From positions 1,438,218 to 1,502,217 of the forward strand of contig NZ_BMRJ01000001.1 of assembly GCF_014648575.1 (NCBI RefSeq): a stretch of DNA of 64,000 nucleotides, written 5' to 3'. Shown one piece after another: positions 5,866-50,644 of the stretch (the stretch's first letter is position 1; every line of letters starts with the position of its first letter). This DNA is from Agromyces mediolanus. GTDB taxonomy: Bacteria; Actinomycetota; Actinomycetes; Actinomycetales; Microbacteriaceae. The position numbers and the translations under genes are program-made. Below the pieces are notes generated by a model. The model was not told the DNA's origin and searched no databases. It saw only the letters and a list, made by a program, of their open reading frames with translations.

Positions 5866-6675
5866 TCACACCGGCTGCGCGTCGGGGTACGCGACCGAGC
5901 CGAGCGGGTAGACGTGCCCGCCGGCCTTGGAGTGCTCGCTGCGGCCGTCGCCCGTGAGGCCGAGGAAGTTCCCCGTCGTCATGAGCTGGTAGCCGAGGTC
6001 GTGCAGCCACACGCTCGCCACGGCGATCCGGAACTCGCGGAAGCAGAACAGGTACAGCCCGTCGTCGAGCCTCCACACGGTCGAGAGGTCCATGTCGCCG
6101 TGCCCGCGCTGCACGCCCTCGAGGCACTGCCACGCGTAGCGCAGGCTCGAGACGTAGACGTGCTCGTAGAGGTGCTCGGGGCTGTAGCGGTACACGTTGC
6201 GCTTGCCGATGAGGTCGCGGCTCGGGCCGGGGGCCTCGCCGCTCGGCTCGACGCCGTCGATCGTCGCGGCCCAGAAGGTCTGGCCGACCCGGGGCACGTC
6301 GTCGGGCGTCTCGTCGTCGGCGATGCGGCTGAGCACGACGATCGCGCGGCCCGTCGGCGCGGAGAGCACGACCGTGATCGACTCGCGCTCGCGGCTCTCG
6401 AGGGGGAGGGTCACGAAGTGCACGCCCTCGCGCACCTCGACCGCGTCGTACGGGTCGACGGCGGGCGCCTGCTGGGCGAGGGCGCCGCCGCCCGTCCAGC
6501 GCACGGTGCCCTCGTCGAAGGCGAGCTCGAGCCGTTCGCCGTCGTCGAGCGAGAGCCCGACCCGGCGGCCGGCGAGCGAGCCGCTCGGCAGGCGGTACGT
6601 GTCGATCCCCGCCGCGAACTCGTCGTAGGTGTGCCAGTCCTCTTCGCCCTTCACCGGGGCGGTGGTGTCGGTCAT
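5866..6675 (-). CDS. MoaF-like protein
   Basis: 269-residue protein resembling the MoaF family: an N-terminal segment with SLAGRRVGLSLDDGERLELAFDEGTVRW, a middle with the pattern VREGVHFVTLP and ESITVVLS, and a C-terminal half with LFCFREFRIAVASVWLHDL and GNFLGL followed by YPLG. MoaF was named from a molybdenum-cofactor operon but its biochemistry is poorly defined and the fold is probably lipocalin-like, so the name should not be read as a cofactor function here. GGAAGGA lies six bases before the ATG. It begins a two-gene unit with the SnoaL-like gene, between an AraC regulator and the liv-type importer. Confidence 0.7.
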   Translation of the reverse strand: MTDTTAPVKGEEDWHTYDEFAAGIDTYRLPSGSLAGRRVGLSLDDGERLELAFDEGTVRWTGGGALAQQAPAVDPYDAVEVREGVHFVTLPLESRERESITVVLSAPTGRAIVVLSRIADDETPDDVPRVGQTFWAATIDGVEPSGEAPGPSRDLIGKRNVYRYSPEHLYEHVYVSSLRYAWQCLEGVQRGHGDMDLSTVWRLDDGLYLFCFREFRIAVASVWLHDLGYQLMTTGNFLGLTGDGRSEHSKAGGHVYPLGSVAYPDAQPV

Positions 6676-6800
6676 GCTGCGTCCTTCCGGTCGGTGTTCG
6701 AGCCATGCTCGGCCCGGGCCGGAGTCCGCCTCAAGGGCGGCGGCATGATCGTGCGGGGCTGGTCAATCCGCGTGCCGCGCTCGGCAAGCGGGCATCGCGC

Positions 6801-7760
6801 TCAGCGGGCGCGGAGCTCGCTCGGCGCGTGCCCGTAGGCGGCCTTGAACGCGCGGCTGAAGTGCGCGGCGTCGACGAAGCCCCAGCGCGCCGCGATCGCC
6901 GCGACGGGGCGGTCGGCGTAGAGCGGGTTCATCAGGTCGCGGCGGCAGCGCTCGAGCCGCCGGGTGCGGATCCACGTCGACACGGTGGTGCCCTGCGACT
7001 GGAAGAGCCCGTGCAGATGCCGGGTGGAGATGTAGTGCGCGGCCGCGATGGAGGCGGGCCCGAGCTCGGTCGAGGCGAGGTTCTCGTCGATGTGGGCGCG
7101 GATGCGCTGCATGAGCGCCTGGTGCGGGTCGCCGCCCTCGCGGTCGAGGTCGAGCTCGCGGGCGAACACGGTCGTCACGAGGTCGAGGGCGCTGTGCGTG
7201 AGGCGGACGCCGGCGGAGCCGTGCAGCTGTTCGAGGTTGCCGGCGAGCTGGGTGAGGTACGGCACGACGAGCGCGCCGAGCCCCTCGTCGCCCGCCATGC
7301 GGACGGCGGTCAGCTGTCCCACCACCTCGGAGGGGAGGTCGATGAGGTGCTTCGGGAACATCACGACCATGGTGCGGAACTCGGCGTCGAAGACGAGCGA
7401 GTAGGGGCGGTTGGTGTCGTAGACCGCGAGGTCGCCGGGGCGCAGCACCGCCTCGCGGTTGTCCTGGATCAGGATGCCGGAGCCGGCGAGCATGAGGCTG
7501 AGCTTGAACGAGCCGCGGTCGCCGCGGGCGATGAGCTCCGGGGTGCGCTCGACGATGTGGTCGGTGGCCCGCACCTCGCTCACGTGCACCTCGTCGACGT
7601 TCGCCGCACGGATGAGGCCGCGGAACGGGTCGGGATGCTCGCTCGTCACCTGCAGCGGCACGAAGGCGTCGCTCACGGCGGTGCGGAAGGCGGAGAAATC
7701 ACGCGCGAGGATGGTCGAGACGGGGCCTTGCTCGGGACGAGCGGCGGGGGAGCTGTGCAC
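6801..7760 (-). CDS. AraC family transcriptional regulator
   Basis: 319-residue activator-type regulator. Residues about 20-200 form a sensory domain of the AraC-binding-like type (FKLSLMLAGSG, RPGDLAVYDTNRPYSL). The C-terminal 100 residues hold the two helix-turn-helix units, with GPASIAAAHYISTRHLHGLFQSQG and the family signature ending in RWGFVDAAHFSRAFKAAYGHAPSELR. Start is a GTG at 7760 with GAGGTGA just upstream. It lies upstream of, and in the same direction as, the MoaF/SnoaL/importer genes, so it is the likely regulator of that catabolic cluster. Confidence 0.92.
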   Translation of the reverse strand: MHSSPAARPEQGPVSTILARDFSAFRTAVSDAFVPLQVTSEHPDPFRGLIRAANVDEVHVSEVRATDHIVERTPELIARGDRGSFKLSLMLAGSGILIQDNREAVLRPGDLAVYDTNRPYSLVFDAEFRTMVVMFPKHLIDLPSEVVGQLTAVRMAGDEGLGALVVPYLTQLAGNLEQLHGSAGVRLTHSALDLVTTVFARELDLDREGGDPHQALMQRIRAHIDENLASTELGPASIAAAHYISTRHLHGLFQSQGTTVSTWIRTRRLERCRRDLMNPLYADRPVAAIAARWGFVDAAHFSRAFKAAYGHAPSELRAR

Positions 7761-43337: not shown

Positions 43338-44408
43338 GTGGCTCTCACTATCGGCATCGTCGGCCTGCCCAACGTCGGCAAGTCCACCCTCTTCAACGCC
43401 CTCACCAAGAACCAGGTGCTCGCGGCGAACTACCCGTTCGCGACGATCGAGCCGAACGTGGGCGTCGTGAACCTGCCCGACCCGCGGCTCGAGACGCTCG
43501 CCGGCATCTTCGGCTCGGAGCGCATCCTGCCCGCCGCGGTGTCCTTCGTCGACATCGCCGGCATCGTGCGCGGGGCGAGCGAGGGCGAGGGCCTCGGCAA
43601 CAAGTTCCTCGCCAACATCCGCGAGGCCGACGCGATCGCGCAGGTCGTCCGGGGCTTCACCGACGGCGACGTCGTGCACGTCGACGGCAAGGTCGACCCC
43701 AAGTCCGACATGGAGACGATCAACACCGAGCTGATCCTCGCCGACCTCGAGACCCTCGAGCGGGCCATCACCCGCTACGAGAAGGAGGTCAAGGGCAAGA
43801 AGCTCGACCCCTCCGTGCTCGCGGCGGCCAAGGAGGCCCAGGAGGCCCTGCAGGCCGGCACCCCGCTCTCGGCGACGAAGATCGACCTCGAGCCCGTCAA
43901 GGAGCTCGGGCTGCTCACCGCGAAGCCCTTCATCTACGTCTTCAACGTCGACGAGGGCGTGCTGACGGATGCCGCGCGCAAGGCCGAGCTCGCCGCGCTC
44001 GTCGCGCCGGCGGAGGCGGTCTTCCTCGACGCGAAGATCGAGTCCGAGCTCATCGACCTCGACCCCGAGGACGCGGCGGAGCTGCTCGCCTCGACCGGGC
44101 AGGAGGAGTCGGGGCTCGACCAGCTCGCCCGCGTCGGCTTCGACACCCTCGGCCTGCAGACCTACCTCACGGCGGGCCCCAAGGAGTCGCGCGCCTGGAC
44201 CATCCACAAGGGCTGGAAGGCGCCGCAGGCAGCCGGCGTCATCCACACCGACTTCGAGCGCGGCTTCATCAAGGCCGAGGTGATCTCCTTCGCCGACCTC
44301 GTCGAGACCGGCTCGGTCGCCGAGGCCCGCGCCAAGGGCAAGGCGCGCATGGAGGGCAAGGACTACGTCATGCAGGACGGCGACGTCGTGGAGTTCCGTC
44401 ACAGTTAG
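43338..44408 (+). CDS. ychF: YchF/Obg-family ATPase with island-derived C-terminus
   Basis: Universally conserved ribosome-associated P-loop ATPase, 356 residues. G1 is [18 protein letters not shown]; the G2/G3 region has [15 protein letters not shown] and [21 protein letters not shown]; the TGS domain near the C-terminus has [39 protein letters not shown]. Normal YchF proteins finish with GDVV/MxFRFNV; here the last codons read GDVVEFRHS and stop, because an island entered at the 3' end. The missing end, FRFNV and stop, is found 5.6 kb downstream at 49978-50005. Essential function is probably kept. Confidence 0.97.
44384..44398 (+). repeat. left attachment repeat (attL) in ychF
   Basis: CGTCGTGGAGTTCCG, identical to 49978-49992, in the codons for VVEFR of ychF. 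It marks the left border of the island. Confidence 0.82.
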
Positions 44409-44442
44409 CGGTGTTGCGACAGGGTGTGTGTCAGGCCTCCGC

Positions 44443-44448
44443 TACGCT
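44443..44448 (+). promoter_or_regulatory. leaderless-type -10 TACGCT
   Basis: TACGCT ends 6 nt before ATG 44455, just inside the left island border; it supports this start over the GTG at 44428. Confidence 0.55.
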
Positions 44449-44454
44449 CGCGCT

Positions 44455-44778
44455 ATGGATGACGAGTGGCAGGTTGTTGAGGGAACTGGCTGGATTGCTA
44501 TGCCGGGATTCGGTCGAATCGCACCTCGACGTGACAACGTGGCGGGCGGACGCCAGTATTTCACGGCGCACGTGGACGGTGATGAATACGCGACTGCGTC
44601 AGGCGCAGAAGTCACTGGCGGCCCGGAGACCTACTACTTCGAGTTCGATCAGCCGTTCCTGCTGGCAGACCGCACTCGGGAACAGTGCGTCGAGGCGACG
44701 ATCTCGCTGTTGGTCGGAGGGCGCTACGCAGTGAAGTATCGCAAGGGACAGTGGCCGAGCGGCGGCGGTGCTTGGTGA
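44455..44778 (+). CDS. Unknown 107-residue protein of the island
   Basis: Unrecognised. 107 residues, mixed composition rich in aromatic and Gly residues (GTGWIAMPGFGRI, RQYFTAHVDG, TYYFEFDQPFLLADRT), no signal peptide or membrane segment, predicted mostly beta. It begins 47 bp after the ychF stop and has its own leaderless -10. Position ahead of the endonuclease gene would suit a controller or accessory protein, but no helix-turn-helix is visible. Confidence 0.6.
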   Translation: MDDEWQVVEGTGWIAMPGFGRIAPRRDNVAGGRQYFTAHVDGDEYATASGAEVTGGPETYYFEFDQPFLLADRTREQCVEATISLLVGGRYAVKYRKGQWPSGGGAW

Positions 44779-44964
44779 ATCGGGCCCTCGCAGCCCACGA
44801 GCGCCAGACTGACGAGCCGATCATCAACGGTGGTAGGCAACAGAATCAGGACGGCTCTGGATGACGAATTCAAGCCGATCCGTGTGCGGCTTCCGAGTTT
44901 GAGCTCAACACCCGTTCTTGGATACGTTCATCGCACGGCTCCATGCCGCCGTCGGGAGTGAAGG

Positions 44965-45891
44965 ATGCAGAACGCAGTCAGCCAGGCAATCAGTCAGGGC
45001 ATTCATGTACGCCGTGAGATCCTGGGAAGCCTGACGTACGAACAGCGCGTCTTCCTCCTTGAGGATCTCTTTGTTGACTTGTTCGGCCACCAGCACGTGA
45101 TGCTCCAACGATGGGCAGCCCTAACTGGGCAGTCTGCACAGGTAGACACCGGCTACATCGCCCAGTTCGTCGCTTCCATCGTGCTGGGCGAGCCTGGGCA
45201 GGGCTTCCGAGGAAAGGGCGACGACCTGGCCGACGGGAGCGAGGTCAAGAGCGCCGCAAACATTTCGGGTGTTGATCGGCCGAGATGGAATCACAATTTG
45301 GGGTCCCTGGACGACGACGAGCACCGCCGCTCGCGCGGGCTGCCAACTGCCGGCGAAGAATACCTGGGCGTGCCCTACATGTTCTATCTGCTGGTAGACC
45401 GCCCACACGGCGTCTCAGACCCGGCCCCAATCCGCATCCGGGCTTGGTGCATCGATGCCCAGGAGGACGGAGACTGGCGCGATCTCTTCGAGACCTTCCT
45501 TACTTCGCGCAGGGGGCGGACCTACAACTTTCAGCTCCACCCCCCGGTCGGCTATGACGACGACGTGGTTGTGAACACACTCGGGAATCTTGACTTCTCG
45601 AACGTGCTCGTTTTCGACGCTCGATTGAGCCTTGCGGACAGGGACCGCCCCGAGATCGACTGGCATGTTCCGCTGCCGACTCAGGTAATTCCAGTCACCG
45701 GTCGAACCCGAGCGCTCCGGTACGGGGGGAGGGGTGCACGCCCCACGCGCCTGACCAATACTGCCGACATTGTCCTCGGGACCAACGATCTCGGCGCTCT
45801 CTTCCCTGGCGTCCTCGCTCCGCGGGACAGCTACGACCTCGCGACCGTCTCAGAGATCGAGACGGAAGCGGAGGTGGAGGAATACAGCTGA
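44965..45891 (+). CDS. MamI-like type II restriction endonuclease
   Basis: 308 residues. The N-terminal half has VRREILGSLTYEQRVFLLEDLFVDLF, TGQSAQVDTGYIAQFVASIVLGEPGQGFRGKGDDLADGSEVKSAANISGVDRPRWNH; the D-(x)n-E-V-K arrangement in DLADGSEVKSA is the PD-(D/E)xK-type catalytic motif, and the segment agrees with my memory of the MamI family (MamI, from a Microbacterium, cuts GATNNNNATC). Recognition here is inferred only. ATG 44965 has GGGAG upstream. It converges on the methyltransferase gene with one base between the stops. Confidence 0.78.
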   Translation: MQNAVSQAISQGIHVRREILGSLTYEQRVFLLEDLFVDLFGHQHVMLQRWAALTGQSAQVDTGYIAQFVASIVLGEPGQGFRGKGDDLADGSEVKSAANISGVDRPRWNHNLGSLDDDEHRRSRGLPTAGEEYLGVPYMFYLLVDRPHGVSDPAPIRIRAWCIDAQEDGDWRDLFETFLTSRRGRTYNFQLHPPVGYDDDVVVNTLGNLDFSNVLVFDARLSLADRDRPEIDWHVPLPTQVIPVTGRTRALRYGGRGARPTRLTNTADIVLGTNDLGALFPGVLAPRDSYDLATVSEIETEAEVEEYS

Positions 45892-45892
45892 A

Positions 45893-47959
45893 TCAGCCGG
45901 GCTGGTGGAGCGCTGCGAGCCGTAGCCGGGAAGACTCGATGTTTCGAACTTCGCGGCGGGCCTGCTCGCCGATTTCGGCTAGCTCGGACGGCGTCTTGAA
46001 CGGCACGATGAGAGCGAGCACGTCCTCCGGCCCAATTCGACGTCGTGAGCTCGATGTGCCACTGCCAAGGGGTCGAAGCTGCGCTTGGACGCGGGGGTCG
46101 TAAAGCAGTGCAAGGAGCGCATAGGGGTCTACCAAAGCCTTAAACACGCCGAACTCCCCGCTGCACATCACCGTGGGATAGTCCTCTGCGATCACCGCCG
46201 CCCGCAGCTTGGAAGGGTTGAGCAGCGAGACGATCAAATCACCCGATGACGCCCACTGGCCTGGAGTAGTGGGGTTGTATTGGAGTGTTTCGTTCCAACT
46301 GACGGTGCCGAGCTGATCCACGTGAAGAACGGAGACGAAGGGCTCGTCTGTGCGCTTCCCCTTCCTTGACCTAGGAGCAGTGCGAAGCAGCTCACCGAGC
46401 TCGATTCCGCCCGTCGCGAGAAGCTCATGGCGGGACTTCACTGCTTCCGGGTCTAGGCGGTTCGGGTCCACGCTGGTGAGCCCGTCCGACGGGACAGATG
46501 CCACGAGCGGACGAGAGGACACCGTCTCGATCTCGTCCGACGCGGGATTGGACTTGAGTGTATTGAGCAGCGCGGCAGTTACAGCGGGAATATCGCTTCC
46601 CTCGGGATCGGCGACTGCTCGCCCAGCCTGCTTAATGAAGCCGACGTGATCAACTCGAGCGAGAGTAGTCCGTTCCCCCCGTGGAACCCGTCGAATGAAT
46701 ACCGCGCTGGTCTTCGCCACAGTGCCGCTGAGGGCGAAGGTGACAGTGGGGAGGCTTACTGAAGCGACGACGTGAAAGTCCGGATTGGACAGGATGTCCT
46801 GGAACTGTCGCCCGTTCACAATGCCTTCCGGAAGAACTATCCCAAGGACTCCCCCGGGTCGCAGAAGTTCGAGAGACAGCGCGAGTCCAGCAATCGCGGG
46901 GTCCATGGGTCGATTCGGACGGACACTGGGGAACAGCTCGCGGGTCCGGTCGATGCCCAGGGCGTCGTCGTACTTACCGCCCCCAAACGGCGGATTCGTA
47001 AGTACGGCAGCAAGAGTTCCTCTTAGCCGGTCCAGCCCGGGATCTGTCATCGAGTCGGCGACTGCGTAAACCTCTGGTTGTTGCGCACCGTAAAGGAGCA
47101 GGTTCAGACCCGACTTCGCAATTGCGGTCGTAGATTGATCGGCCCCCACCAGACCTCCATCGAGGAGACCCGCCAAGTCCACGTTCTCATGTCGCTCTTC
47201 CGCGGCGTCGAATGCGGCCACGAGAAATCGACCAGTTCCGCAGAAGGGGTCCGCGATGATGGGTGCCCTCACGTCAGCTAGGGCGTCGCTCGAGAGGAGA
47301 TCGAGGACCACCTCAGCCATCATGCGAGCGACGGAACTTGGCGTGAGGTAAGTGCCGAGGCCACCGGAATGGTCATACCGGCCGCTAAGGAAGGCGTCGA
47401 AAGCCGTGCCTAGCGGGTCCGCGACTCGGGTTCCGCCGCCGAGAATCTCGTTCACCAGTGCAAGTGCGCTCTGGAGCACCGTCGGTTCCGCTAGGCGGAA
47501 CGGTTCGTCGTAGGGCCAGAGCGGACGGCTGCTGCCATCCACCGCACGCAAAGACATGCGATCGACCGTAAGAACTTGTGTGAAGGCTTTCTTTGTCACC
47601 TCCACTACCGACTCGTCCGGAACTGCTCCGTCGAACAGTGCTCGAAGGCCTACTCCATCGACTGAGGCCTCGTCGTCCCGGCTCAGCCACAGGCGAAGCA
47701 GTAGCAGCTTGCCGACCTCCTCAATGGCTGCGTTGGTCGGTCGTACGCCTCCGCGCGTGTACAACAGCTGGTGAAGCCCATCGAACCGGGCCGCGAGCGC
47801 GAGTTCGTCGACAGTCGCGTTTCCCGCCGAACCCAAGAGCGGAGCATGAAGATCCTCTGGGAACAGGGTCAGATCGGTTTCGAGGGTCACAGTGGAAGAT
47901 CCTACGGCGTGCCTCAGAGGCCTCATCGTGCGCCGCGCCACGGCTGGCATTCGGCTCAC
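45893..47959 (-). CDS. N6-adenine DNA methyltransferase (HsdM-like, with C-terminal recognition region)
   Basis: 688 residues. An N-terminal helical domain (about 1-195) precedes LGTYLTPSSVARMM, SAM motif I DPFCGTGRF (237-245) and catalytic TNPPF (321-325), the gamma-class order. The last 170 residues, with VSVLHVDQLGTVSWNETLQYNPTTPGQWASSGDLIVSLLNP and a terminal helix, look like a specificity (S-like) region fused to the M part, so the protein can act alone. It presumably protects sites of the neighbouring endonuclease. Its GTG start overlaps the stop of the small upstream gene by 4 bp. Confidence 0.85.
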   Translation of the reverse strand: MSRMPAVARRTMRPLRHAVGSSTVTLETDLTLFPEDLHAPLLGSAGNATVDELALAARFDGLHQLLYTRGGVRPTNAAIEEVGKLLLLRLWLSRDDEASVDGVGLRALFDGAVPDESVVEVTKKAFTQVLTVDRMSLRAVDGSSRPLWPYDEPFRLAEPTVLQSALALVNEILGGGTRVADPLGTAFDAFLSGRYDHSGGLGTYLTPSSVARMMAEVVLDLLSSDALADVRAPIIADPFCGTGRFLVAAFDAAEERHENVDLAGLLDGGLVGADQSTTAIAKSGLNLLLYGAQQPEVYAVADSMTDPGLDRLRGTLAAVLTNPPFGGGKYDDALGIDRTRELFPSVRPNRPMDPAIAGLALSLELLRPGGVLGIVLPEGIVNGRQFQDILSNPDFHVVASVSLPTVTFALSGTVAKTSAVFIRRVPRGERTTLARVDHVGFIKQAGRAVADPEGSDIPAVTAALLNTLKSNPASDEIETVSSRPLVASVPSDGLTSVDPNRLDPEAVKSRHELLATGGIELGELLRTAPRSRKGKRTDEPFVSVLHVDQLGTVSWNETLQYNPTTPGQWASSGDLIVSLLNPSKLRAAVIAEDYPTVMCSGEFGVFKALVDPYALLALLYDPRVQAQLRPLGSGTSSSRRRIGPEDVLALIVPFKTPSELAEIGEQARREVRNIESSRLRLAALHQPG

Positions 47960-48312
47960 GCAGCCACCTTCTTGACCGGAGCCTTCCGTGCCGGTGCCTT
48001 GGCAGCAACCCTGGCCTGGGCCGGGCTCCGCTTCGCGGCAGACTTGGACGCAGCCTCAAGCTCCCAGCCGGAAGGCAGCTCGTCCACGTTGGCACTGGCC
48101 CGCTCGACCAGCGCGTCGAACTCGCCGGCCTCGATGGCCTCGACGAACGCCTGCCAAGCGATCGCTCGCATGGCCTTGTAGCGGTTCTTCTGCACGTTGA
48201 TGTCGTGGGCCTCGATTACACGCATGATGCCCTCGTTGACGATCTGCAGGGGCGGGAGCTCGACAGTCTCGGTGGTCTCGACGGCTGCCTTGGTGGTGGT
48301 CTTGGTGGCCAT
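47956..48312 (-). CDS. Small protein with histone-like basic tail, coupled to the methyltransferase
   Basis: 118 residues from ATG 48312, which has AAGGAG eight bases upstream. A Thr/Lys-rich start is followed by a helical middle (LQIVNEGIMRVIEAHDIN, YKAMRAIAWQAFVEAIEAGEFDALVERA) and a tail of Lys, Ala and Pro (KRSPAQARVAAKAPARKAPVKKVAA) like those of mycobacterial HupB or eukaryotic H1. No named family recognised. The tail predicts nucleic-acid binding. Its stop overlaps the methyltransferase start in GTGA, and a LexA box lies 29 bp upstream of its start. Confidence 0.75.
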   Translation of the reverse strand: MATKTTTKAAVETTETVELPPLQIVNEGIMRVIEAHDINVQKNRYKAMRAIAWQAFVEAIEAGEFDALVERASANVDELPSGWELEAASKSAAKRSPAQARVAAKAPARKAPVKKVAA

Positions 48313-48340
48313 GGTGGTGTTCTCCTTGAGTGTATGAACA

Positions 48341-48356
48341 TCGAACATGTGTTCGA
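48341..48356 (-). promoter_or_regulatory. LexA (SOS) box
   Basis: TCGAACATGTGTTCGA matches exactly the mycobacterial SOS consensus TCGAAC-N4-GTTCGA and also the Bacillus form CGAAC-N4-GTTCG. On the minus strand it overlaps a weak -35 (TTCGAA) placed 17 bp before a -10-like TACACT, and lies 29 bp before the start of the small-protein/methyltransferase operon. The nearest gene on the plus strand is far away, so this operon is the evident target. Confidence 0.85.
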
Positions 48357-48502
48357 ACAAAAGCATTTTGCCTGACTTCGATCAGGGCGCGCAAACCTGC
48401 TGACGGGCGTGGTTCCATGGCAAGGCACAGGCGTAGCCGGAGGTTTCTGCCTGAACTAGCGGCGGCCATCTCGCCTTGCTACCTAGGGTGTGTCTGTTGC
48501 AC

Positions 48503-49738
48503 TCATGGGGCCAGGTCTGTGACTTCGGACGCAGAACGGACACCGTCACGGTCGAGCGCTTCGACCAGGTCGGGCAGGTGGGTGTAGACGTTCGGCCGTT
48601 CATCGCGACGCGCCAAAAGTTGCGTCAACTGGCGACCAGTCGACCGTTCGGCCGCCACGTAGTCGCAGTACGCAGCAGCGCAGGTCAGGAACATGATGTC
48701 GTTGAGATCATTGGGTAACCATCGTCGGTTCGGATCTCGATGTCGCTCGGCCATGACGGCGGTGTAGAGACCGCCAAAACGGGTGTCGCTTACCGCGCTA
48801 GCCACATCCTGCGGTCCGAGACGGCTGACCAGCGTCGAGGGTGCTTCGATAAGAGACAGCGCAGACGACATCAGGCCTTCGTTGTCCCGAATCGCCGCCA
48901 ACGTGGTTGCCGATGATCGCTGTTCCCTCGTCAGCGAAGCCACCCACTTTGCGATGTCGCCGTTGCTGTCGGCCCATCGTGTGGGAGGAACCCCGGCGAT
49001 GGACTCAGGGTCGATCAGCATGGAGACAAGCACTGAAGGCCAGGTCAAGGCATCCATGAACTTGCGCATGCTTTCGCTCAGGTCGTCGTCCGCCGCAGAC
49101 TCGACGCGGTCGCCGAACACGCTTCTTGGCTCGAGCGTGACAGCGTCCGTCTCAGGAACAGCGGCATTCATGGAGAGGCGCTCGGCGAACCACGCGGCGA
49201 ACTCCCGGCGACGAAGTTCGAGCGGGTCGCGGAGTTGCCAACCCCCACTGAGTGATGCAATCGTGATGCCGACCTCGTAGCGTCTACCCCCGAACAGGGC
49301 GGCTGTTTCTTGCATCGTCGCTGACGAGAGGGGGAGCCTGATACCACCATCGTGACCGAGCTTCATGATTCGTCGTGCGGCGGTGCGGTCCTCTTCAGAC
49401 ACGGCCTCCGGCTTCACGACGGTCTTTGCAATCGTGCTCCAGCGGTTTTGGTCGAGATACACGGACGGCCGACCCTTTACAGGATCACCAACCGGGCTCC
49501 ACACTTCGGCGAACACGAGATGGCCTCTTTCGGTCTCAGTGGTCAGCCACCAGCGGTCCCAATCGAAGAACGTTCGCGCGATTTCATCGCTAGGTCGGCG
49601 CATATCCGAGTCCATGGGAGCGACGTGCTCTTCACCTGATTGCATGACGATGCGAATCTGGTGCGCTTTCCAGTCAAGGACCCACATGCTGTAGTCGTCT
49701 GCTGACAGGGTCAGCGTGCGCCCGCCTCGCTTCGTCAT
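48503..49738 (-). CDS. PIN-like domain protein of unknown function
   Basis: 411 residues, no close family recalled. Three acidic blocks are spaced as in PIN-like nucleases: RPSVYLDQNRWSTIAK (about residue 94), RLPLSSATMQETAALF (about 135) and, near the C-terminus, WLPNDLNDIMFLTCAAAYCDYVAAERSTGRQL (about 345-376). The first 85 residues form a separate beta-rich domain. Lower GC than the backbone. It lies upstream of the SOS-controlled operon on the same strand, 190 bp away, and is the last intact gene before the right island border. A role in defence as a ribonuclease is inferred. Confidence 0.55.
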   Translation of the reverse strand: MTKRGGRTLTLSADDYSMWVLDWKAHQIRIVMQSGEEHVAPMDSDMRRPSDEIARTFFDWDRWWLTTETERGHLVFAEVWSPVGDPVKGRPSVYLDQNRWSTIAKTVVKPEAVSEEDRTAARRIMKLGHDGGIRLPLSSATMQETAALFGGRRYEVGITIASLSGGWQLRDPLELRRREFAAWFAERLSMNAAVPETDAVTLEPRSVFGDRVESAADDDLSESMRKFMDALTWPSVLVSMLIDPESIAGVPPTRWADSNGDIAKWVASLTREQRSSATTLAAIRDNEGLMSSALSLIEAPSTLVSRLGPQDVASAVSDTRFGGLYTAVMAERHRDPNRRWLPNDLNDIMFLTCAAAYCDYVAAERSTGRQLTQLLARRDERPNVYTHLPDLVEALDRDGVRSASEVTDLAP

Positions 49739-49798
49739 ATCGAAATGGTCTCAGCGTGCGCCGACATCTGATCATCGCCGGCACATCCGATTGGACGC

Positions 49799-49924
49799 TC
49801 AAGTCCTCGTGGCAGACGCGTAGGCGCGGCGCACAGTGGACTCCTGCCACTGGGGCAGGCCGGTCGGCGACAGCACGCCTTCGGTCGTGAGGGTGACAGG
49901 AGTCAAGGGCCAGTCAAGCAGGAT
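49799..49924 (-). pseudogene. possible serine-recombinase remnant
   Basis: A 41-codon open stretch without start, closed by stops on both sides, reads in part LTTEGVLSPTGLPQWQESTV followed by RRAY. The order EGxxSPxGxxxWxxSTVRR recalls the Recombinase domain of large serine recombinases. It lies 54 bp inside the right repeat, where the island's integrase would be expected. Short and weak; it may be chance. Confidence 0.3.
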
Positions 49925-49977
49925 CTACTCCATGGATTTGCGGGACTAGGACCTTCTGAGGTTGTTCGGCTGCGTGG

Positions 49978-49992
49978 CGTCGTGGAGTTCCG
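49978..49992 (+). repeat. right attachment repeat (attR)
   Basis: CGTCGTGGAGTTCCG, identical to 44384-44398. Bases to its right continue the original ychF frame; bases to its left do not match ychF. Confidence 0.82.
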
Positions 49993-50005
49993 CTTCAACG
50001 TCTGA
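49978..50005 (+). pseudogene. displaced 3' end of ychF
   Basis: In frame this reads VVEFRFNV and stop (TGA 50003-50005), the canonical C-terminus of YchF, 5.6 kb away from the gene. Before insertion ychF would have ended here, 12 bp before the pentapeptide-protein ATG. Confidence 0.85.
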
Positions 50006-50017
50006 TCAACTGAGGAG

Positions 50018-50644
50018 ATGCAGTCGACGAAGCGCCAGTTGCGAGCGCGGTGGACGCCCGAGCTCACGAGCGCGTTCGAGCGTGAGCTCGTCCTCGCCTC
50101 GCAGCGACCCGGGGCCGCGTTTCCGGCGTCCCCGTTCGGAACGACCGCCGCGGGTCGCGTCGATCTGCGCGGAGCGCGGCTGACGACGCCGATCCGGCAG
50201 CTCGGGGCAACGGGCGTCGACCTGTCGGATGTCGTCTTCGCGGACGGGGCGTCGGTGATCGAGTCGGAGCTGGAGGACTGCGTCCTCGACCGGATCGACA
50301 TGCGGCGCGTGTTCGTCAGACGACGCTTCGTGGACTGCAGCTTCGTGGGGGCGAAGCTCAGCGGCGCACGCCTCGGCGGCGTGTTCGAGGGCTGCGACTT
50401 CTCCGACGCAACCCTGTCGCGCTCCGTCGCGTCGGGCGTGCGGTTCGAACGCTGCAGCTTCACCGGCGCGAGCGTGCGGGACGTGATGTGGACGACGCGC
50501 TGCGTCTTCGACCACTGCGAGTTCGAGGGCGTCGCCGCCTTCACCGGCTCCGTCGCCGGCAGTGTGTTCATCGGCCCGACGCCGCCCGACCTCGGCGGAT
50601 GCATCGTCGACCACGTGCAGTACGAAGGCGGATTCCCAGTCTGA
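50018..50644 (+). CDS. Pentapeptide-repeat protein
   Basis: 208 residues. From about residue 45 a right-handed quadrilateral helix is predicted from repeats A(D/N)LxX: VDLRGARL, VDLSDVVF, SELEDCVL, RRFVDCSFVGAKLSGARLGGVFEGCDFSDATL, RFERCSFTGASV. Such proteins can mimic DNA (some protect gyrase) but most have no known role. AGGAG just before the ATG. It was the immediate neighbour of ychF before island insertion and has backbone GC. Confidence 0.85.
   Translation: MQSTKRQLRARWTPELTSAFERELVLASQRPGAAFPASPFGTTAAGRVDLRGARLTTPIRQLGATGVDLSDVVFADGASVIESELEDCVLDRIDMRRVFVRRRFVDCSFVGAKLSGARLGGVFEGCDFSDATLSRSVASGVRFERCSFTGASVRDVMWTTRCVFDHCEFEGVAAFTGSVAGSVFIGPTPPDLGGCIVDHVQYEGGFPV

Follow-up and report, generated by a model that had tools for sequence, protein, structure and literature searches.

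In the genome of Agromyces mediolanus (NCBI RefSeq assembly GCF_014648575.1), the 3' end of ychF, the gene for the YchF ATPase/GTPase, adjoins a 5.6-kb insert that is probably a gene cassette lacking a recombinase gene. The stretch analyzed, called the window throughout, comprises 64,000 nucleotides (contig NZ_BMRJ01000001.1, positions 1,438,218 to 1,502,217, forward strand); features are given in its coordinates, and other genomes and stretches are cited by G and L numbers, respectively. The host gene lies at 43338..44408 on the plus strand (Pfam YchF-GTPase_C, 6.5e-38). The 15-mer CGTCGTGGAGTTCCG was found exactly twice in the window, on the same strand, at 44384-44398 and 49978-49992. These are the two positions given in a previous inspection of the letters alone (the sequence-only reading), and an exact match search confirmed both of them; one further place in the window resembled the 15-mer with 2 mismatches. 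The repeat-bounded interval (44384-49992) has a GC content of ~0.62 between the two copies vs ~0.70 outside. The left copy, which forms the left junction, falls within the final codons of ychF. The left end of the insert, TCACAGTTAG (44399..44408, plus strand), supplies His-Ser-stop, and the resident gene reads ...VVEFRHS-stop; a near copy of this end, TCACAGTCAG, follows a core copy in G063. At the other side, the right-end arm CTGAGGTTGTTCGGCTGCGTGG (49956..49977, plus strand) precedes the right copy of the core, which forms the right junction. This copy is followed by CTTCAACGTCTGA (49993..50005, plus strand), which encodes F-N-V-stop, and a pentapeptide-repeat gene (50018..50644, plus strand; Pfam, 2e-12) begins 12 bp further.

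The C-termini of YchF were compared in 38 relatives with a readable ychF, counted as one row per genome. FRFNV was present in 36 of the 38, the other two reading FRFNL (G028) and FRFSN (G036). Hence, the resident FRHS was the oddity and the F-N-V-stop beyond the right copy was the displaced native end, in agreement with the sequence-only reading. Furthermore, a sister genome (G030) was aligned with the window. Its ychF matched at 97.5% identity as far as the final base of the core, and the next matching block, on the side of the pentapeptide-repeat gene, resumed at the second base of the right core (92.4% DNA identity, 645 bp from the right core on). These two blocks are separated by 1.4 kb in G030 and by 5.6 kb in the genome of the window, and BLAST found nothing in common between the inserts; ~0.8 kb more differed beyond the pentapeptide-repeat gene. 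The genome G024, nearly as close, carried the same insert as G030 without the right flank. Since the swap in G030 occurred exactly at the repeats, these are the boundaries of the insertion. The sequence-only reading had suggested searching relatives for an uninterrupted ychF; no genome had exactly this site empty, and the sister genome offered instead a different insert between the same flanks.

The cargo of the insert was annotated with several family collections. A small ORF of 107 aa from its ATG (44455..44778, plus strand) gave no match in Pfam, PADLOC, PHROGs or NCBIfam. A predicted type II restriction endonuclease of the MamI family, with 308 aa (44965..45891, plus strand; PF09567, 1.1e-22; PADLOC REase_II, 3.1e-222), adjoins a predicted N6-adenine DNA methyltransferase of 688 aa (45893..47959, minus strand; PF02384, 5.4e-16; PADLOC MTase_II, 2.8e-239), whose C-terminal part matched PADLOC Control_protein (1.8e-61) and, weakly, Specificity_I (5.4e-5). 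Both Pfam matches were above the cut-offs, and this pair is a predicted MamI-family type II restriction-modification (RM) system; the lower GC and the RM genes described by the sequence-only reading were both confirmed. A search of solved structures found no relative of the endonuclease, and matched the methyltransferase to type I M subunits. Two more genes lie on the minus strand. One encodes a protein of 136 aa (120 aa from an inner start; 47956..48366) of the uncharacterized phage family phrog_4077 (PHROGs, 1.2e-39), with an alanine-lysine-rich tail and a weak likeness to the Rv3852 family (5.6e-3, below cut-off). The other encodes a 411-aa protein (48503..49738) to which Pfam, PADLOC, PHROGs and further family searches assigned no family, and which had two distant relatives in 249 sampled genomes of the bacterial family (28% and 27% identity, the second partial). 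The Pfam, PADLOC and PHROGs searches detected no recombinase in the interval that the repeats enclose, and the PF00589 and PF00239 matches of the source genome were far from the insert.

The genes of the RM pair were also found side by side in four other loci, in Microbacterium hydrothermale (endonuclease 85%, methyltransferase 65% identical), one Nocardioides and two Acidimicrobiia assemblies. Two genes beside the M. hydrothermale pair (L125, 9137-12502) gave the impression, from their translation, of being McrBC-type. In the Nocardioides locus (L126, 16906-18067) a tyrosine integrase, matched by the hidden Markov model (HMM) of ychF-type integrases used below, lies ~4 kb from the methyltransferase.

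The recurrence of ychF ends was analyzed in the region up to 20 kb downstream of ychF (shorter at contig ends) in 53 loci, 0.9 Mb in total, from 51 of a set of 60 genomes of the genus, those with ychF coordinates, and two of other families of the order. The 28-nt ychF end was searched with up to 4 mismatches, and the opposite strand and, on each strand, the pattern written backward served as controls. Seventeen extra copies in the orientation of ychF were found in 12 of the 53 loci, the window locus included, and none in each of the three controls. With up to 6 mismatches, 22 extra ends were found vs 3 on the reverse strand. In G036 copies were located at +1421, +3101 and +3954, two of them with a second, partial core 23 nt on, and extra copies were also present in G030 (+1402), G074 (+1179) and G072 (+1067). 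Copies 3-15 kb downstream that continued as ...AAGACxCG were rejected, as they lie within a different gene, which we take to be mutM/fpg, reading VDVVEFR..KTR.

These counts bear on the explanation that the extra ends arose by chance, or by homologous recombination between short ychF-like repeats together with segmental duplication. Some loci do have such an appearance, since in G020 the sequence that follows ychF is repeated on both sides of the insert and in G007 the displaced piece of ychF comprises ~55 codons. Nevertheless, the three control directions were empty, different cargo lies between the same boundaries in G030 and the window, and the arm described below was not derived from ychF, so this explanation is very improbable. 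The chance occurrence of the 15-mer and of the FRFNV codons, which the sequence-only reading had named as its possible undoing, is likewise contradicted by the 17 oriented ends.

The two atypical loci had further features. In G020 (L068) the repeated sequence spans 0-1.35 kb after ychF and reappears after the second core, as if the insert carried a copy of the flank. In G007 (L033), ~5.9-6.1 kb after ychF, the displaced codons (~301-355) are far longer than in the other arrays and lie near a gene for a 1195-aa protein; this is a different type of insertion at the ychF site.

The search was extended to the bacterial family, where exact matches to the ychF-end pattern were found in 165 of 398 genomes, 14 of which had two or more. 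Thirteen of these 14 were fetched (G395 was left out), and 11 had a copy downstream of ychF. The other two were rejected as arrays, as G083 has its further ychF copies near contig ends and G289 shows the same place on two contigs. Four ychF-end copies were found in G146 and also in G434, where they delimit three modules: one glyoxalase-like, one with HigA and a hydrolase, and one with a zeta-like kinase. Fourteen sites in 12 of 299 family genomes matched a strict cassette-end pattern, GGAACNNGGTSGAGTTCCG, and the backward pattern, used as the control, gave none. In 10 of these 12 genomes the site was downstream of ychF in the same orientation; the stretches of G338 and G147 contain no ychF. 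In a sample of the phylum, the strict pattern was found in 2 of 396 genomes. One match looks real, in another family of the class outside the order (L147, G519), where VVEFRFNV-stop follows the arm GTTGGTTGGCGGCGGAAC in a 3-kb stretch that contains no ychF; the other (L148) sits in a coding frame and looks like chance. Additionally, in Nocardia farcinica (L134, NZ_LN868939.1, 1762174-1780221) ychF ends in FRHS-stop, as in the window, and core copies follow at distances of 5.3, 6.1, 7.3 and 8.6 kb. Within a ychF-end module of this array (~6455-7708) lies a gene whose product has an AadA C-terminal domain. Plasmid and phage matches to the composite end, besides N. farcinica, a Tsukamurella ychF and the phage Mulchroom, were rejected as chance or unrelated. 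The viral contig L132 was discarded as well, its cassette pattern lying in unrelated sequence with no integrase seen nearby, and the window-type arm had no match in viral contigs.

A wide set of 79 stretches from 75 genomes was then compiled, some of them chosen for having two copies, and including the integrase-bearing G213 and G254. It contained 54 extra sites in 34 of the 79 stretches, which come from 34 of the 75 genomes; the sites were often in tandem, with 1 on the reverse strand. The spacing between copies had a median of 1.3 kb (n=52), 37 spacings were under 2 kb, and many held one intact gene. The phenomenon is larger than the single island described by the sequence-only reading.

Domains were assigned for ten proteins of the modules, one remaining without a family. 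The modules between ychF ends contain HigBA, Abi_2, RhuM-Fic, PIN, a zeta-like kinase, RM, a VOC protein and a hydrolase. The higB gene lies ~40 bp from ychF in G273, G151 and G302, 46 bp in G001, 878 bp in G313, 3195 bp in G015 and 3917 bp in G259; HigBA was also present in the G451, G147 and N. farcinica stretches, and HigA without HigB in G434 and G049. The kinase was found in G434, G049 and G451, the VOC gene in G434, G016 and G262, and the hydrolase in G434 and G036, as well as in G262, 10.6 kb from ychF. RhuM-Fic was found in G072 and G069, with a piece in G060, and a gene for an HSP90-like ATPase in G008 and G016. The same cargo thus occupies varying positions, which indicated that modules change place between arrays of different genera.

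The ends of the cassettes were compared using the 54 extra sites. Conservation extended to the left beyond the ychF-like core, with G at -7 in 46, A at -4 in 45 and C at -3 in 42 of the 54 sites, and a weaker motif, gaGGTTgkTcnG, was present at -23 to -12. The right ends share the arm gaGGTTgkT...CGGAAC-N8-GTTCCG, whose two parts are frequent but not universal among the cassettes and which is absent from native ychF. In 24 of 50 sites found regardless of the arm, the 6-mer before the 8-nt spacer was complementary to GTTCCG in at least five of six positions, whereas native ychF reached 3/6 (52 of 53 loci) and random upstream 6-mers attained at least 5/6 in 11 of 2000 cases. Therefore, the right-end arm did not come from ychF. 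Inverted arms around an 8-bp spacer are the layout of the core site of a tyrosine recombinase. At the right end of the window insert, the outer motif GAGGTTGKT was present at the set distance (CTGAGGTTGTT at 49956). This end was identical to the ends in G313 and G151 in 17 of 23 nt, and to that of G313, from another genus, in a run of 14/14 nt (GTTGTTCGGCTGCG, in the same register). At least 12 of 23 nt were identical in 12 of the 53 other ends in the same register, as compared to 5 of 1060 shifted comparisons. The left ends start next to the core, and most of them give ychF the ending FNV-stop; the other types were HS (the window and N. farcinica) and FSN (G036, with the same type inside arrays in G451 and G166). 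The window insert also has direct copies of the core on both sides in the same orientation and no recombinase detected between them, as in the other ychF-end cassettes.

Tandem small cassettes, toxin-antitoxin genes and the AadA-domain gene of the N. farcinica array recall a chromosomal integron with its integrase elsewhere. The motif RYYYAAC occurred anywhere in the 90-nt ends in 12 of 54 cases vs 2.3 expected in shuffles, which also fits an integron. Nevertheless, none of the 54 ends contained GTTRRRY in any position, the core included, and RYYYAAC was paired with it in 0 of 54; this core test already refutes the strict form of an integron. The mean fold energies of the ends, with RNA parameters as a proxy, were -14.9 and -12.6 vs -15.0 in mononucleotide shuffles. 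Furthermore, no intI or other integrase was found beside ychF (PF00589 in 17 genomes and the ychF-type HMM), and G434 has no third tyrosine recombinase. A chromosomal integron is accordingly the least probable of the explanations considered, with hardly any weight.

Recombinases were searched in a wider neighborhood. A search of 17 genomes with PF00589, which included 16 of the 34 that have extra sites, found no match on the contig of ychF less than 40 kb from the gene, and a search of 12 genomes with PF00239 found none there less than 100 kb away. Across all fetched stretches, the HMM of ychF-type integrases matched only in G213, G254 and stretches fetched for other reasons. This model rests on a small number of sequences and may overlook distant integrases, for which the whole-genome PF00589 searches make up in 17 genomes only. 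The first thought, a site resembling that of the staphylococcal cassette chromosome (SCC) or of a prophage, was dropped, as neither serine recombinases nor integrases were found near ychF; this absence is what led to the reading as a cassette without a recombinase.

Some elements with an integrase do carry a ychF end. The satellite phage Mulchroom (L133, OQ784832.1) has a 25-nt exact match to the ychF end at 7353-7377, ~80 bp from an annotated tyrosine integrase gene. In the IMG/VR contigs L096 and L097 (alike) and L102 the match lies beside an integrase of ~250 aa, and in L100 beside one of 388 aa, the attachment (att) site of the latter carrying GTTGTTCG with the spacing to the core seen in the window. 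In G213 an integrase lies 60 bp from ychF, beside genes that looked phage-like by eye. By the position of these matches, actinophage satellites would use the 3' end of ychF. In G254 (L118), 0-8.6 kb after ychF, genes for proteins of 1357 and 694 aa accompany a broken ychF-type integrase; the two proteins could be a candidate unstudied defence pair.

These elements raise the explanation that the inserts descend from prophages, satellites or integrative elements, each of which once encoded a tyrosine integrase specific for ychF and has since lost it; the integrase-bearing examples (Mulchroom, L096, L097, L102, L100 and G213, with the broken gene of G254) provide the models. Nevertheless, neither intact nor broken integrases were detected in the arrays of cassettes, 37 of the 52 spacings are shorter than 2 kb, many of them with one intact gene, the same cassettes recur across different genera, and G213 and G254 have right ends that do not resemble those of cassettes. 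The decay of autonomous elements is therefore an unlikely origin. Nor does the window insert carry the integrase gene that defines an autonomous prophage, satellite or integrative and conjugative element.

A comparably low probability was given to a movement of the cassettes by the host XerC/XerD, in the manner reported for the pdif modules of Acinetobacter. This explanation draws on G434, a single contig with three cassettes, whose only two PF00589 proteins are XerC-like and XerD-like, each below the curated equivalog cut-off. Similar proteins appeared by BLAST in other genomes searched with PF00589, which is a hint only, as several were in the wrong frame. On the other side, dif sites are AT-rich, unlike CGGAAC-N8-GTTCCG, and G000 and other genomes have further tyrosine recombinases.

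Taken together, the 5.6-kb insert is probably a gene cassette without a recombinase, joined to the 3' end of ychF by site-specific recombination. The core in ychF (about GTGGTGGAGTTCCG) would recombine with an identical core carried by a circular form of the cassette. A cassette begins right after the core, usually with the codons that close ychF (FNV-stop; HS-stop in the window), and ends with the arm plus the core, so that insertion would displace whatever followed the core. In this way cassettes would pile up behind ychF, all pointing the same way, as observed in several genera of the family, another family of the order and Nocardia. The cargo is the predicted MamI-type RM pair and three small or unknown genes in the window, and toxin-antitoxin, abortive-infection or metabolic genes elsewhere. 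The putative recombinase acting in trans is probably of the tyrosine type, because of the inverted arms CGGAAC/GTTCCG around the 8-bp spacer and because the integrases found beside ychF-end att sites are tyrosine integrases. The candidates for this enzyme are the host Xer proteins, a transient integrase or something unseen.

Several observations weigh against this interpretation. The mobilizing recombinase remains putative and the circular form is only inferred, and the whole-genome PF00589 searches cover only 16 of the 34 genomes in which extra sites occur, several being split into many contigs. No second ychF end with up to 4 mismatches was found in 41 of the 53 loci. The arm with at least five of six complementary positions was lacking in 28 of the 54 sites, and a loose set of GGTTGKY-like motifs was present in 18 of 54. 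In the window itself the inner arm is CGTGGC, 3/6 complementary, and differs from CGGAAC, and the window cassette would on this account be a divergent member. The ends of G213 and G254 share a right-shifted core, GTTCCGCTTCAACG, and not the cassette core GTGGAGTTCCG, so the phage enzymes need not be the enzyme of the cassettes. In the stretches examined from four other genomes, no ychF ends flank the RM homologues, so this cargo also moves by other routes. Finally, the 17.7-kb interval of G016 has ORFs that looked transposase-like by eye, so some intervals are not simple cassettes.

The insert is thus most likely neither an autonomous island nor an integron, but a cassette without a recombinase at an actinomycete docking site in ychF. 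The integration proposed by the sequence-only reading is supported by the swap in the sister genome at the exact repeat, by FRFNV in relatives and by the recurrent, oriented, modular pattern. Its description as a defence island stood as far as site-specific insertion is concerned and gave way in that the insert lacks the look of a self-mobile island, has no detected recombinase and belongs to a family of small cassettes.

Among known systems, integron cassettes are also small tandem modules in one orientation, with a site closing each module, the recombinase outside the module and toxin-antitoxin cargo. The ychF arrays differ in that the searches found no adjoining intI, no GTTRRRY and no unusually stable folded end; their platform is the end of a housekeeping gene whose stop codon is supplied by the cassettes. 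In staphylococci, SCC elements stand in tandem at the 3' end of rlmH, a conserved protein gene, and some lack a recombinase, as at ychF. The ychF modules are far smaller, with no ccr-like serine recombinase near (PF00239 matches were far from ychF in 12 genomes). The pdif modules of Acinetobacter plasmids are reported to lie, like the ychF-end cassettes, between recombination sites, there Xer sites, and to be moved by the host XerC/XerD. The ychF cassettes differ from them in being chromosomal, with direct ychF-end repeats and a core unlike dif.

The Mulch/Flayer satellite phages of Streptomyces (PMC10690885) resemble the cassettes through the ychF-end match beside the tyrosine integrase gene of Mulchroom, which differs from them in having integrase, terminase and capsid genes; a search of the text of that paper found no ychF, attP or attB. 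The sequence-only reading did not count ychF among the well-known integration sites. In pneumococcus, a prophage attB is reported to adjoin ychF, as a 14-bp site in the promoter region with an integrase present (PMC6375853, PMC8637289); that site is upstream of ychF and hence a different place. A third pneumococcal paper mentions ychF, attB and integrase together (PMC10383233). No published description of ychF-end cassettes was found, a provisional result with most subscription journals and bioRxiv outside the full-text search. Equally provisional, the full texts gave nothing joining ychF, integrase and Streptomyces, nor cassette arrays, integrase, Microbacterium and toxin-antitoxin, and no "GTP-binding protein YchF" with an attachment site; the literature on defense islands and hotspots contained no ychF among the matches listed.

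In a broader, more tentative proposal, for which we would put the chances slightly below even, Actinomycetes may possess a cassette system separate from integrons, with the 3' end of ychF as a common docking site. The host stop end would be carried by the cassettes so that docking spares ychF, and the recombinase would act in trans, either as XerC/XerD or from phages and satellites in transit that target this site as well. Because ychF has to stay closed, the form of the cassette ends would then be constrained. Such a system would provide high-GC Gram-positive bacteria, in which, to our knowledge, integrons are rare, with a further platform for gene cassettes on the chromosome, and would account for the spread of single defence and toxin genes where no mobile element is visible. 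It also raises the question of which recombinase moves DNA that seemingly carries none. A second ychF end downstream of ychF is a simple marker for finding new defence genes. If the proposal is true, the exchange of HigBA across orders, in this family, another family of the order and Nocardia, would represent a shared pool of defence and stress genes.

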